Shown in pieces: positions 1,315-6,693 of a stretch of DNA of 7,165 bases (positions within the stretch are counted from its first letter, which is position 1; each line of letters opens with the position of its first letter). The DNA lies in NCBI GenBank assembly GCA_029932675.1, contig JAOZPP010000096.1:1-7165 (forward strand), in the 5' to 3' direction. Under the pieces are notes generated by a model that saw only the letters and a program-made list of their open reading frames with translations, did no database searches and had not been told where the DNA came from. Position numbers and translations under genes: made by a program. The DNA is from a bacterium. Lineage in GTDB: Bacteria > SM23-81 > DAOVCL01.

Positions 1315-2616
1315 ATGGGAAAGGGGCATCAAGTATGGGGATGGGTAATCTACGACTTTGCCAATACCATCTTCTCCATGAATGTGGTCTCCCTCTACTT
1401 CTCCCTCTGGATCACTGTTGATAATGGAAGGGAGGATATCCTTGTCTCCATAGCCAATTCTCTCTCTATGCTCCTTGTGGCCCTATCAATGCCTGGCTTG
1501 GGGGTGGTCTCTGATAGGTACAAAAGGAGGTTACCCTTTCTCTTAGGATTGACCATCTCCTGTGTGACATTTACAGCTCTGATCAGCATTGTCGGTTGGA
1601 TAGTCCCCTCAATGGGTTGGAGGGTAACCTTGGCCCTCTGCCTTTTTGTGGGGGCCAACTATTCTTATCAGGGAGGATTGGTCTTCTACAATGCCCTCCT
1701 CCCGGTGGTTAGCCCCCCCACGCAGATGGGGAGGGTCTCCGGCTATGGGACAGCTATGGGTTACTTAGGGGCCATAGCGGGGCTGGCCTTGGTTATGCCC
1801 TTCAACCAAGGGAGTCTCTTCGGCTGGCGGATTCCCTTCATCAGCGGTGGGGGGAGGGTAGCAACCTTCCTCCCCACTGCCGGCTTCTTCCTCCTCTTCT
1901 CCATCCCTACCTTTCTCCTTATCAGGGAGAGGGAGGAGAAGGGATCACTTTCTGGGGTAAATTTGCAGGAGATATGGGGGAAGGTCTGGGAGGGACTTTC
2001 CAATACCAAGAGATTCCCAGGGGTCTTGCGTTTTTTGATCTCCAAATATCTCTATGAGGATGCCATTGCCACCGTGATCATCTTTATGGGGGTTTATGGG
2101 AACAAGGTGATGGGCTTTAGTGACTCGGTCCTGGTCCCCTTCCTTATGGTCTCTACCTCTGGGGCCATAATAGGGTCACTTGGCTTTGGTAGGTTGACGG
2201 ATCGAATTGGCCCGAAACGGACCCTCTCCTTGGTCCTCGTTGGATGGATCCTCTCCTTAGGGGCTCTAATTCTCTGCTCAGCCCCCTTTCTCTTCTGGAT
2301 CATCGGTTCCCTGATTGGGGCTTTCTTAGGGGGGACCTGGGCATCATCTCGACCCCTCCTCGTGGATCTTGTCCCCCAGGAGATGTTGGGTGAATTCTTT
2401 GGCCTCTATTCCCTCTCTGGAAAGCTTGCCGCTGTCGCTGGCCCCCTGATCTGGGGCGGGGTTGTCTTGCTCTTTCGCCCCTTAGGCCTGGTGAGATACA
2501 AGTTTGCCATAGCCTCCCTTATCCTAATGTTGGCTGCGGGTTTGATTGTCCTCTGCGGAGTTCCCTCCCGTGGATGGCCTCTGCAGGGGGAGTCTTCTCG
2601 AAAGGTGAAGAAATGA
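1315..2616 (+). CDS. MFS transporter, Atg22/UMF1-like family
   Basis: A 433-residue inner-membrane protein with roughly 12 hydrophobic segments, the usual MFS size. It opens with WGWVIYDFANTIFSM (residues 8-22), the hallmark of the UMF1 / vacuole-effluxer Atg22-like branch. The two halves carry the MFS loop signatures GVVSDRYKRR (63-72) and GRLTDRIGPKR (292-302). Late in the protein the family signature is present as SRPLLVDLVPQEMLGEFFG (345-363), followed by YSLSGKLAAVAGPL. Eukaryotic Atg22 exports amino acids from vacuoles; bacterial members are mostly uncharacterised, so the substrate is unknown. The start is set at ATG 1315, one base after the previous stop. A GTG at 1273 in the same frame would overlap the upstream gene by 41 bp and add 14 residues not needed for the YDFAN motif. 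The TGA stop overlaps the purF ATG as ATGA. Confidence 0.88.
   Translation: MGKGHQVWGWVIYDFANTIFSMNVVSLYFSLWITVDNGREDILVSIANSLSMLLVALSMPGLGVVSDRYKRRLPFLLGLTISCVTFTALISIVGWIVPSMGWRVTLALCLFVGANYSYQGGLVFYNALLPVVSPPTQMGRVSGYGTAMGYLGAIAGLALVMPFNQGSLFGWRIPFISGGGRVATFLPTAGFFLLFSIPTFLLIREREEKGSLSGVNLQEIWGKVWEGLSNTKRFPGVLRFLISKYLYEDAIATVIIFMGVYGNKVMGFSDSVLVPFLMVSTSGAIIGSLGFGRLTDRIGPKRTLSLVLVGWILSLGALILCSAPFLFWIIGSLIGAFLGGTWASSRPLLVDLVPQEMLGEFFGLYSLSGKLAAVAGPLIWGGVVLLFRPLGLVRYKFAIASLILMLAAGLIVLCGVPSRGWPLQGESSRKVKK
2601..2607 (+). promoter_or_regulatory. Ribosome binding site deciding the purF start
   Basis: AAAGGTG sits 5 nt before ATG 2613, at the end of the MFS gene. It supports ATG 2613 over the in-frame ATG at 2574, which has no comparable purine-rich site in front of it. 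Confidence 0.6.
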
Positions 2617-3953
2617 AGGAAGATTGTGGCCTTTTTGGCATTTGGGGAACCCCAGAGGCAACCTCCTTTACCTACTTGGGCCTTTACTCCTTGCAACATA
2701 GGGGACAGGAGAGCGCGGGGATTGTCTCCTTTGATGGGCGGGATTTCTTCGAACATCGAGGGATGGGCTTGGTCTCAGAGGTCTTTTCTCCGAGGCTGTT
2801 TAATGGGATGAAGGGGGAAGCAGCTATCGGCCACAATCGCTACTCCACCAGTGGGGAGTCATCCCTGAGAAACGCCCAGCCCCTCTTGGCCAACCTCCGG
2901 GGGCGGAAGTTCTCCATTGCCCACAATGGAAACCTGGTTAATTCCCAGGAGCTTACCAGGGAGCTGGAGGCCACTGGCTCAATCTTCAGGTCTACCTTGG
3001 ACAGTGAGGTCATAGTCCATCTGATGGCCCGCACAAAGGAGGATGATCCCATAGAGATGACTGTGGAGGCTCTAAAGAAGGTAAGAGGAGCATATTCCCT
3101 CCTCATCCTCACCGAGGGGGGCTTGATTGCGGTTAGGGACCCCTGGGGGGTGAGGCCCCTCTGTATGGGCAAGCTGAATGGGGCCCCAGTCTTTGCCTCT
3201 GAGTCTTGCGCCTTTGACCTCATTGGGGCTAACTGGGAACGGGAGGTCGACCCTGGTGAGTTGGTCTGGGTGGGGAAGGAAGGAGTTGAAGGTTTCCATC
3301 CCTTCCCCAAGAGTCCAAGTGCGGCCTGCATATTCGAGTTCATCTATTTTGCCCGCCCAGATTCACGGGTCTTTGGGGTCACCGCTGATCGGGTGAGGAG
3401 GGAGATGGGCAAACAGTTGGCCCGGGAAAAACCGGCCTGGGCCGATATAGTCATATCCGTTCCTGACTCCTCAAATACCGCCGCCTTGGGCTATGCCCAG
3501 GAGTCGGGGATAGGATTGGAGATAGGGCTTATCCGTAACCATTATGTAGGGAGGACATTCATCAAACCCGACCAGCCAAGTAGGGACCTGGATGTGAGGA
3601 TAAAGTATAACCCAGTCCGTGGCGTCCTCAAGGGGAAGAGGGTAGTAGTTGTAGATGATTCCATCGTCAGGGGGACAACAAGCAGAAAGCTGGTGGCGAT
3701 GATCCGCAGGGCCGGAGCCAAGGAGGTCCATCTGCGGGTGAGCTCCCCCCCCATCAGATTCCCCTGCTTCTATGGCATCGACACCCCCACCAAGGAGGAG
3801 CTCATCGCCTCCCGTTGGAGGGTAGAGAAGATAAGGGAGTATCTGGGGGCGGACAGTTTGGGCTACCTCTCCATTGAGGGTATGCTCTCCTGTCCCTCCC
3901 TCCCTCCTATAGGGTTCTGCACCGCCTGTTTTGACGGCAATTATCCCATCTAA
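2613..3953 (+). CDS. purF: Amidophosphoribosyltransferase (glutamine PRPP amidotransferase)
   Basis: Catalyses the first committed step of purine synthesis: PRPP plus glutamine gives 5-phosphoribosylamine, glutamate and pyrophosphate, in the cytoplasm. The 446-residue protein has the N-terminal nucleophile glutaminase domain, with catalytic Cys5 in MKEDCGLFGIWG, then YSLQHRGQESAGI (25-37), RYSTSG (76-81) and AHNGNLVN (103-110). The phosphoribosyltransferase domain carries the PRPP loop VVVVDDSIVRGTTS (344-357). Cys239, Cys385, Cys436 and Cys439 match the four ligands of the 4Fe-4S cluster of the Bacillus-type enzyme, so this is the oxygen-sensitive, iron-sulfur form made as a precursor. If translation starts at ATG 2613, the leader before the nucleophile is only four residues; starting at 2574 would make it 17, against 11 in B. 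subtilis. The C-terminus ends soon after the last cysteine pair (FDGNYPI), shorter than in Bacillus. The start overlaps the MFS stop by 4 bp, and prmC follows after 3 bp. Confidence 0.97.
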   Translation: MKEDCGLFGIWGTPEATSFTYLGLYSLQHRGQESAGIVSFDGRDFFEHRGMGLVSEVFSPRLFNGMKGEAAIGHNRYSTSGESSLRNAQPLLANLRGRKFSIAHNGNLVNSQELTRELEATGSIFRSTLDSEVIVHLMARTKEDDPIEMTVEALKKVRGAYSLLILTEGGLIAVRDPWGVRPLCMGKLNGAPVFASESCAFDLIGANWEREVDPGELVWVGKEGVEGFHPFPKSPSAACIFEFIYFARPDSRVFGVTADRVRREMGKQLAREKPAWADIVISVPDSSNTAALGYAQESGIGLEIGLIRNHYVGRTFIKPDQPSRDLDVRIKYNPVRGVLKGKRVVVVDDSIVRGTTSRKLVAMIRRAGAKEVHLRVSSPPIRFPCFYGIDTPTKEELIASRWRVEKIREYLGADSLGYLSIEGMLSCPSLPPIGFCTACFDGNYPI

Positions 3954-3956
3954 CCT

Positions 3957-4820
3957 ATGCAGATTATGCCCCTGCTCAAAAAGGCCCAAGGTTACCTCTC
4001 CCAGAAGGGGATAGAGAATCCCAGGCTCTCGGCAGAGGTCCTCCTCGCCCACTGCTTGGGCTTAAGGAGGATTGACCTCTACCTCAATTACGATCGTCCC
4101 CTTACAGAGGAGGAGCTTTCCACTTACCGAAAACTCATTTCCAAGAGGGCCAGGCATTATCCCCTTCAGTACCTAACCGGTGAGGTGGAGTTTTATTCCT
4201 TAAAGTTTCTGGTCACCGAAGGGGTCTTCATCCCCCGACCGGAGACTGAGGTCCTGGTGGAGAGGGTAAAGGAGGTAATTGAAGGAACAGCCACAGTTGC
4301 TGATATAGGAACCGGCTGTGGGGTGGTAGCTATCTCCCTGGCCAAGGTCCTTCCTACGGCTAGCTTCTATGCCAGTGATATCTCAGAGGAGGCACTGGAA
4401 ATAGCTGTGGAGAACGCAAAGAAGAATGGGGTGGAGGGGAGGATAACCTTCCTCCTCGGTAGTCTCTTTTCTCCGTTTCAGGGGCTGGAGGGGAAGTTAG
4501 ACGCCGTGGTCTCCAATCCCCCCTACATCCCTGAGGAGAAATTGGTTGGTCTCCCGGATGAGGTGAGGCTGTATGAGCCGAAGAGCGCAATAGATGGAGG
4601 GAAAGGAGGGATGGAGCTACTGAAGCGGATAATAACTGAAGCCTTGCCCTACCTGAGGGAGGAGGGGATACTGGCCTTAGAGGTAGGGGATTCCCAGGCG
4701 CAGTCGGTAATGCACCTGATGAAGGAAGGTTATGTCAAGATAGAAACATTTCCTGACCTCAATGGCGTGGATAGAGTGGTGTTCGGAAGAAGGGCACCAG
4801 GAAGGGGGGGAGATGGCTAA
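3957..4820 (+). CDS. prmC: Release factor glutamine N5-methyltransferase PrmC
   Basis: Methylates the glutamine of the GGQ motif in release factors RF1 and RF2 using S-adenosylmethionine, raising termination efficiency. The 287-residue length is normal. The N-terminal helical domain includes NPRLSAEVLLAHCLGL (21-36) and the stretch HYPLQYLTGEVEFY (67-80), which is typical of the family. The Rossmann methyltransferase domain has IPRPETE (92-98), the SAM-binding DIGTGCG (116-122), acidic Asp141 at the end of strand 2 and the catalytic NPPYIP (187-192) that holds the target glutamine amide; DLNGVDRVV (267-275) closes the fold. In many bacteria prmC follows prfA, but here it follows purF. Neither ATG 3957 nor the in-frame ATG 3966 has a visible Shine-Dalgarno sequence; with only 3 bp after the purF stop, initiation is probably by coupling. 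The last 8 bp overlap the next gene. The glycine-rich tail (PGRGGDG) appears to be a by-product of the overlapping ribosome site. Confidence 0.96.
   Translation: MQIMPLLKKAQGYLSQKGIENPRLSAEVLLAHCLGLRRIDLYLNYDRPLTEEELSTYRKLISKRARHYPLQYLTGEVEFYSLKFLVTEGVFIPRPETEVLVERVKEVIEGTATVADIGTGCGVVAISLAKVLPTASFYASDISEEALEIAVENAKKNGVEGRITFLLGSLFSPFQGLEGKLDAVVSNPPYIPEEKLVGLPDEVRLYEPKSAIDGGKGGMELLKRIITEALPYLREEGILALEVGDSQAQSVMHLMKEGYVKIETFPDLNGVDRVVFGRRAPGRGGDG
4799..4805 (+). promoter_or_regulatory. Ribosome binding site for the DASS symporter gene
   Basis: AGGAAGG, followed by a G-run, lies 7 nt before ATG 4813, inside the 3' end of prmC. It is the strongest ribosome site in the window and favours ATG 4813 over both the in-frame ATG at 4762 and the ATG at 4966. 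Confidence 0.65.
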
Positions 4821-6693
4821 GGTCTTCAGGCTGGTTTACAGATGGAGCGTGGCTGAGGGGATAAGGGCAAAGGCCCTCCTTTCGGCGACCGTGTTACCAT
4901 GGAGGTTCCCCCTTCTCTTTAGCCTAAATAGGGAAGAGAGCAGAAGGGAGACGGTCGTTGAGGAGATGGAGGAGAGGAGGTCCCTGGGATTGAAACCGAA
5001 AATTGGTCTGGGACTCGGGGTTGGGCTCTTCCTCCTGCTCCTTCTTGTCCCTCCCCCGGAGAGGATGTATATCCCTGCCACAAAAGTAGTGCTCAGACAC
5101 TGTCAAAAGGGTGTAGTCCAGACCCTGCTTAGGGGGACATCACTTGCCGGGGAGGTTAGACCCATCCAAAGCATTGATGCCAGGAATATAAGGCTCATCT
5201 TAGAGAGGGCTAAAGGGATGCGGGTAAAGGTCCCCAAGAACTTCCACTCCTCTGGTGTCCAAGGAATAAGTCTATCCGCAGAGGGGCAACCGCTAAGGGA
5301 GGTGATTAACCACCAGGTTGGTGGCCTGAAGAAGACTATTGGCTTGGCCCTGCTGATGGCCATCCTCTGGATAACCGAGGCCCTGCCCATCCCGGTCACC
5401 GCACTTCTCCCTCTGGTCCTCCTTCCCCTTTTAGGCATCGCCCATTACAAGTATGCCCAGCTACCTGGATACTTCGTCGCCTACGCCCCTTATATGCACT
5501 ATCTTGTAGTCCTCTTCATCGGGGGGTTTACCATCGCCGAGGCGATGAAGAGGTGGAGGCTCCATGAGAGGATCGCCCTCCATTTTATCCGCTTGATTGG
5601 CTTTTCCCCCCGAAGGATCATCCTTGGGCTGATGGTGGCCACAGCGGTTCTCTCTATGTTCGTCTCCAACACGGCAACCACGGCGATGATGATGCCTATT
5701 GGCTTGGCCATAATCCTGGAGGCGGGTGGTAAGCCAGGGGAGAGCAGGTTTGGGCTGGCCCTGATGTTAGGTATTGCCTACGCTGCCTCAATTGGGGGGA
5801 TCGGCACCCTCATCGGCACCCCACCAAACGTGGTCCTGGCCGGTTTCGCCGATGCCCTCCTCCATATCAAGGTTACCTTTGCCGGTTGGTTGCGGGTCGG
5901 CCTCCCATTGGTGGTGGTCCTTCTCCCCCTTACTTGGCTGATGCTCCTCAAGCTTAACCCCTTTGAGGAACTGAAGTTTGCAGGCTCAAGGGGGTTGATC
6001 GCCCGAAGGATAAGGTCCCTTGGTCCCTTGCGAGGTGGGGAGTTGAACACATTTGTCATATTCCTGGTGATCGCCCTGATGTGGATCTTTCAGAAGCCTA
6101 TCTCCGGCGCGCTTCACCTCCCCTGGTTGGGGGATTCAGTAATCAGCATCATCGGCCTCCTCCTCTTCTACCTCGTTCCGGTCAGCCTGCGCAGATGGGA
6201 GTTCACCTTAGACTGGCAGACAAACCTGCAGATACCCTGGGGGACCCTCCTCCTCTTTGGCGGGGGGATAGCTCTAGGGCAGGCCCTGGATCACACCGGA
6301 GGGGCGGAGTTCATCGCTATGCACCTGGTGGCCCTTAGGGCCGTCCCCCATATCCTCCTTCTCTTCTTTATCATCCTCTTGGTCGATTTTCTCACCGAGG
6401 TGACCTCTAATACGGCTACCACCAATATGATGATGCCTGTCCTGGTTGCCTTGGGTATGGCCATCGGGCGGGATCCGCTGACGCTAATGATTGGGGGAGC
6501 AGTGGCCGCTTCGATGGCCTTTATGCTCCCTGTGGCTACCCCGCCAAATGCCATCGTCTACGGGACGGGGTTTATCAGGATGGGGGATATGGTGAGGAAT
6601 GGCTTTTTGCTCGACCTCCTAGCCGCCTCCACCTGGACGGTGATCCTCTACTTTGTGGTCTCCCTCCTCTCCCCCCTGGTTACGATCCGATGA
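4813..6693 (+). CDS. DASS/SLC13-family anion:sodium symporter with extended N-terminus
   Basis: Inner-membrane carrier of the divalent-anion:Na+ symporter family, whose members import dicarboxylates, citrate, sulfate or related anions with sodium. Both family signatures are present: VSNTATTAMMMP (Ser285-Asn286-Thr287) and TSNTATTNMMMP (Ser532-Asn533-Thr534), each followed further on by GTPPNVVLAG or ATPPNAIVYG. These are the paired sodium and substrate hairpins of the two inverted-repeat halves. The core starts at about residue 171 with AILWITEALPIPVTALLPL (183-201). The protein is 626 residues; most bacterial relatives are about 450-500. The excess is at the N-terminus: about 62 polar, Arg-rich residues, one membrane helix at 64-80, then about 85 soluble residues (84-170) before the usual second helix. 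ATG 4813 has a good ribosome site and overlaps prmC by 8 bp; ATG 4966 would remove the first 51 residues but keep helix 1 and the insert. The exact anion cannot be read from sequence. Confidence 0.92.
   Translation: MAKVFRLVYRWSVAEGIRAKALLSATVLPWRFPLLFSLNREESRRETVVEEMEERRSLGLKPKIGLGLGVGLFLLLLLVPPPERMYIPATKVVLRHCQKGVVQTLLRGTSLAGEVRPIQSIDARNIRLILERAKGMRVKVPKNFHSSGVQGISLSAEGQPLREVINHQVGGLKKTIGLALLMAILWITEALPIPVTALLPLVLLPLLGIAHYKYAQLPGYFVAYAPYMHYLVVLFIGGFTIAEAMKRWRLHERIALHFIRLIGFSPRRIILGLMVATAVLSMFVSNTATTAMMMPIGLAIILEAGGKPGESRFGLALMLGIAYAASIGGIGTLIGTPPNVVLAGFADALLHIKVTFAGWLRVGLPLVVVLLPLTWLMLLKLNPFEELKFAGSRGLIARRIRSLGPLRGGELNTFVIFLVIALMWIFQKPISGALHLPWLGDSVISIIGLLLFYLVPVSLRRWEFTLDWQTNLQIPWGTLLLFGGGIALGQALDHTGGAEFIAMHLVALRAVPHILLLFFIILLVDFLTEVTSNTATTNMMMPVLVALGMAIGRDPLTLMIGGAVAASMAFMLPVATPPNAIVYGTGFIRMGDMVRNGFLLDLLAASTWTVILYFVVSLLSPLVTIR

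Follow-up and report, generated by a model that had tools for sequence, protein, structure and literature searches.

The window (the whole stretch of DNA analysed, 7,165 nucleotides) encodes a DASS/SLC13 symporter of 626 aa when the gene is read from position 4813, in which case it shares its first 8 bases with the end of a prmC-like gene (Table 1). DASS proteins constitute a medically and metabolically important family of elevator transporters, and the window protein scores above the family cut-offs of both TIGR00785 (279.8 bits versus a curated cut-off of 198.6) and PF00939 (229.3 versus 27, 1.2e-67). SNTATT occurs twice and is accompanied by GTPPN and ATPPNAIV, all of which are invariant with the relatives in the alignment; with both SNT and TPPN motifs intact, normal sodium-coupled elevator transport of di-/tricarboxylate-like anions is therefore expected from the sequence. 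Modelled by AlphaFold from the alternative start at 4966 (23 aligned sequences), the full-length chain has a mean pLDDT of 88.8 and a VcINDY-type fold, with NaCT/NaDC3 as the closest folds (Z of 46.6 to NaCT, 8uvb, and 40.5 to VcINDY).

Either of two starts is possible for this gene. The ATG at 4966 would yield 575 aa and an N-terminus that lines up with the starts of the relatives. Among these proteins, the 51-residue N-terminal extension (4813-4965) is present in the window protein alone, its 51 codons look coding (frame score 0.219 versus -0.32 and -0.65 in the other frames), and a strong Shine-Dalgarno-like GGAAGGGGGGGAG lies upstream of 4813. Residues are numbered from 4813 below.

Table 1. 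Features of the symporter gene in the window
Feature	Position	Strand	Basis
DASS/SLC13 sodium-coupled anion symporter gene	4813..6693	+	TIGR00785, PF00939, NaCT 8uvb fold match
Membrane helix 1 (TM1), residues 62-79	4996..5049	+	aligned with TM1 of all homologues; predicted helix 10-27 (numbering from 4966)
Inserted domain, predicted periplasmic, residues ~82-172	5056..5328	+	loop lengths, alignment, AlphaFold models
Predicted helices of the insert	5059-5097, 5107-5133, 5188-5214	+	AlphaFold model (32-44, 48-56, 75-83 numbered from 4966)
Predicted short strands of the insert	5221-5229, 5266-5274	+	AlphaFold model (86-88, 101-103 numbered from 4966)
Continuous predicted helix from the insert (LREVINHQVGG) into membrane helix 2 (LKKTIGLALLMAILWITEA)	5293..5376	+	H110-137 in model from 4966
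TM3-TM4 loop, 17 residues in carriers	5443..5496	+	alignment; PGYFxAFxPYMHYL conserved in relatives
First SNT motif (SNTATTAMMMPIG), anion/sodium site of hairpin HPin	5668..5706	+	invariant in alignment
Second SNT motif (SNTATTNMMMP), hairpin HPout	6406..6438	+	invariant in alignment

The initial annotation had pointed to an extra segment between TM1 and TM2 (residues 84-170, 5062-5322), free of stops, and the segment is indeed open, in frame and real. Measured in a single alignment of all relatives from the end of TM1 (V79) to K173 before TM2, this stretch comprises 93 aa in the window protein and 82 in three relatives (L004, L005 and L015), versus 1-20, with 9-10 in the majority of cases, in further DASS homologues down to ~24% identity, the sole exception being a distant DASS clade with ~131 aa. 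The net gain is ~83 residues in the window protein and ~72 in the three relatives, the difference of 11 residues falling in the loop after the second helix. The assertion that the segment shares the codon habits of its surroundings holds only roughly: the segment scores 0.095 in frame, a positive value compared to -0.59 and -0.55 out of frame, yet falls short of the gene core in both this score (0.486) and GC3 (0.56 versus 0.73). The proposed boundaries are about right, except that from residue ~161 (REVINHQVGG) the chain is predicted to be an upward extension of the TM2 helix and not part of a separate module.

The insert is predicted to be folded as a small alpha/beta domain. In the full-length model its pLDDT by block is 92, 78, 78, 94, 93, 61, 94, 94, 95 and 88, local dips aside, and when the insert was modelled alone from four sequences the same elements were obtained with a mean pLDDT of 80, though of the five models two reached this confidence and two were poor. 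Confident fold prediction and conservation in three proteins of another phylum together exclude a chance or frameshifted stretch, and the possibility raised beforehand, that the segment is disordered and unconserved, is contradicted by its predicted order and its conservation among carriers.

As originally suggested, the segment resembles no recognised domain in the Pfam, NCBIfam, PDB and Foldseek searches; these null results apply to the libraries searched, and a family outside them is possible. Every Pfam or NCBIfam match was confined to a single one of the carrier inserts, and we attribute to chance both a HerA_antiphage match (2.2e-4), given by the window sequence and by 0/3 of the other carriers, and a ribosomal S17 match given by L004 only. 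SIR2/HerA chains do appear low in the Foldseek list, yet at E 2.4 and TM 0.17 they lend no support to a HerA reading. The sequence search of solved structures returned nothing apart from a repeat artefact, in which WD40 matches were summed over repeats for a 21-residue stretch while no single stretch passes. By fold, the best results were E 0.87 (Foldseek) and Z 2.6 (VIA), and this lack of a match does not equate to a new fold.

Carriers of the insert are rare among the genomes searched. The homologue alignment, named beforehand as a possible refutation, showed that most close SLC13 relatives do not have the segment: presence splits by identity, with relatives at or below 47% lacking it and the three at 58-59% (tblastn) possessing it. 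These three, the only other carriers found, all belong to one other phylum, WOR-3, where the insert occurs in 3/147 genomes, while in the window's own phylum it occurs in the window's genome and no other (1/4); it is found in none of several hundred other genomes, all counts being derived from profile or sequence searches. A scan of 84,980 species, which rests on short peptide patterns, recovered 36 relatives, of which 3 were carriers, and a search of viral contigs found no relatives. Several candidates were rejected: two weak matches in the search of other genomes cover TM1 only, L079 has a short TM1-TM2 loop, and a haloarchaeal plasmid match (L081, residues 94-622) has a loop of just 10 residues. 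More carriers surely exist than have been found.

In a tree built on the core, with the insert and the TM3-TM4 loop left out, the four carriers form one clade (support 100/100) beside 37 insert-lacking rows. The insert has a single origin and, because of this clade, marks a small DASS subfamily by the core phylogeny. Within the WOR-3 proteins, the window protein pairs with L015 (98/73), a placement that suggests transfer between phyla without firmly establishing it. Within the subfamily, the insert of the window protein is 32-35% identical to those of the other carriers, compared to ~60% for the whole protein, and 17 positions are invariant across the 98-residue piece aligned in all four carriers. 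The conserved core of the insert includes H93, K96, N122, A130, K136, P138, K139, F141, G145, G148, I149, G155 and Q165, with an invariant run KxPKxF..(S/T)G..GI. Judged from the four sequences, the insert is thus a conserved core that drifts faster than the rest of the protein. Its net charge (K+R minus D+E) is 9, 11, 5 and 3 in the four carriers.

A second feature common to these proteins is a TM3-TM4 loop of 17 aa (4/4 carriers) versus 9 in all others but one; the single other row with a longer loop, L048, has 29 residues. By published topology this loop and the insert lie on one membrane face. The static scaffold of DASS proteins is built from TMs 1-4 and 7-9, and LaINDY has extra sequence in its TM3-TM4 loop that protrudes on the periplasmic side close to the dimer interface (PMC7553777). 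Based on both observations, the insert should sit at the outer edge of this scaffold. The periplasmic placement suggested at the outset has indirect support from two sources, DASS topology as published and the resemblance of the fold to VcINDY and NaCT. It is a reasonable guess that the insert packs against the enlarged TM3-TM4 loop, and it probably does so. It should be noted that the insert and the longer loop are not independent; both mark one clade, count as one event, and may be unrelated to each other.

We infer that the carriers would be DASS elevators with an ordinary core, importing di-/tricarboxylates or similar divalent anions with sodium, into whose short outer TM1-TM2 loop an alpha/beta domain of ~70-80 net residues would have been inserted once in the ancestor of the subfamily. 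The domain would be placed at the periplasmic edge of the half of the transporter that serves as static scaffold. Helices would tether it at both ends, TM1 from below and, opposite, the unbroken helix that becomes TM2, and it would probably pack on the longer TM3-TM4 loop that lies on this face. Its likeliest role would be structural, as a rigid cap stiffening the outside of the scaffold or the dimer, and its basic surface may raise the local concentration of anionic substrate. We give roughly even odds (about 0.5) to this reading of a rigid periplasmic scaffold cap with possible electrostatic attraction of anions, and favour it over the alternatives below. The intact core, the folded insert, the restriction to one clade, the longer TM3-TM4 loop, the LaINDY precedent, the basic charge and the lack of a shared neighbour gene count in its favor. 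Counting against it, the carriers are few (n = 4), and the faster divergence of the insert fits weak constraint better than a purely structural cap.

The basic charge also bears on an alternative, the substrate-capture role put forward in the initial annotation, in which the His/Lys-bearing domain binds anions in the periplasm and passes them to the outward-facing site, much like a tethered miniature binding protein. All four carriers are net basic, H93, K96, K136 and K139 are invariant, and the family topology places the domain on the outer side, but the charge falls to +3 in L015 and invariance across four sequences is weak evidence for a site. Further, the ~80 residues have no similarity to any binding-protein family or fold, and the TM1-TM2 loop belongs to the scaffold and not to the moving transport domain. 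A basic insert with conserved H and K suits an anion-attracting surface and proves nothing beyond this, and we regard a dedicated capture module as unlikely. Somewhat less likely still is neutral expansion, in which selection would act on a tolerated, folded insertion only to keep it from interfering. The rapid divergence relative to the core, the 11-residue length difference between the window protein and its relatives, and the lower codon score are in keeping with such an origin, yet the insert has been kept across two phyla with the 17 invariant positions, including the KxPKxF..(S/T)G..GI run.

The domain could alternatively be a docking site for another envelope protein, in line with the partner-binding role also proposed at the outset, as may be imagined for an extra soluble domain on the outer face whose core is conserved between phyla. 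However, the window and each of the WOR-3 loci place different genes beside the transporter; across the four they are prmC, a SLOG-family gene and an amidohydrolase gene, a Na+/H+ exchanger gene, and an AbiEii gene. No neighbour gene recurs among these loci (the window contig ends 472 bases past the transporter gene) and thus there is no hint of a dedicated partner; docking is a poorer prospect than neutral expansion. As a separate observation, the AbiEii-type nucleotidyltransferase gene beside one WOR-3 transporter gene (L004, 2453-3905) lies on the opposite strand with an overlapping upstream gene, and the two are likely a type IV toxin-antitoxin pair.

The genome context of the window contig was also considered. 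The contig fits its genome in GC and tetranucleotides, yet a genome of the same genus (G001), called 90% complete, has no match to the window PurF or PrmC, while other phyla do match PrmC; G001 is possibly a reduced or incomplete genome. The window PurF (2613-3950) is only 36-37% identical to PurF of the same phylum, compared to ~51% for PrmC, and the window purF may be of different origin. Judging by composition and matches, contamination of the contig is unlikely. A frameshift, misassembly or gene fusion artefact, to which the lower codon score of the insert might point, is already refuted by independent relatives, as the same segment occurs in three independent assemblies of another phylum, its fold is predicted with confidence, the contig fits its genome, and the best match of the window PrmC (51%) lies in a same-phylum genome.

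The large loop of the distant DASS clade (L057, L083, L084 and L087) provides a second case of enlargement. Its ~131-residue stretch (~120 net extra) occurs at exactly the same junction as the window insert, after PPT.GM at the end of TM1, but differs in length and sequence; the N-terminus of L084 was trimmed in the loop-length alignment, and the same large insert was seen in this protein in another comparison. Homology between the two inserts was not supported (hhalign probability of 14.5% over 23 columns next to TM1), and the distant proteins form a separate 100/100 clade far off on the tree. Based on this unrelated-looking and larger insert at the same junction, the TM1-TM2 site is one that, in the sequences compared, has been elaborated at least twice, and the loop seems to accept domains. 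The members of the distant clade come from two families of other phyla and have a conserved insert, with SDH in place of the first SNT. Two tandem copies of a gene of this type are present on one contig of genome G321.

Taken on its own, the window insert represents a modest departure from a familiar type of transporter and leaves the view of the family mechanism unchanged. Given the second clade, the finding stands less alone, and as a pattern it gains slightly in interest. Enlargement of the TM1-TM2 loop in two unrelated-looking clades identifies a tolerated site, useful for the insertion of tags or fiducials in structural work, and raises the testable question of whether DASS transporters are regulated from their outer face. 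The carriers are a small DASS subfamily defined by a predicted periplasmic domain; the transporter core is of a known kind, and a search of an open-access literature library returned no account of a TM1-TM2 domain in DASS proteins.

Comparison with known systems places the window protein within the family. VcINDY, NaCT (SLC13A5), NaDC1/3 and NaS1 share its transmembrane core, both SNT hairpin motifs and the TPPN motifs, and solved DASS/SLC13 structures align to the window model with VIA Z of 37-47 at 31-37% identity, but these proteins have a short TM1-TM2 loop where the window protein has its ~83 extra residues. TRAP/TAXI transporters have a related elevator fold (Z of 18-23) and exemplify the delivery of substrate to such a transporter by a soluble component on its outer side. 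Their binding protein, separate or fused, has ~300 residues, while the window insert has ~80 and matches none of them. It is improbable that the insert is an undescribed small fold with which a secondary transporter captures substrate within its own chain, as TRAP systems do with their separate binding proteins. Periplasmic elaborations of the static DASS scaffold are scarcely described, and the precedent found is the TM3-TM4 extrusion of LaINDY from Lactobacillus (PMC7553777). Like the window family, LaINDY has an insertion in an outer scaffold loop; it differs in being an exchanger and in bearing that insertion at TM3-TM4, where the window family has 8 extra residues and instead carries its large insert at TM1-TM2.
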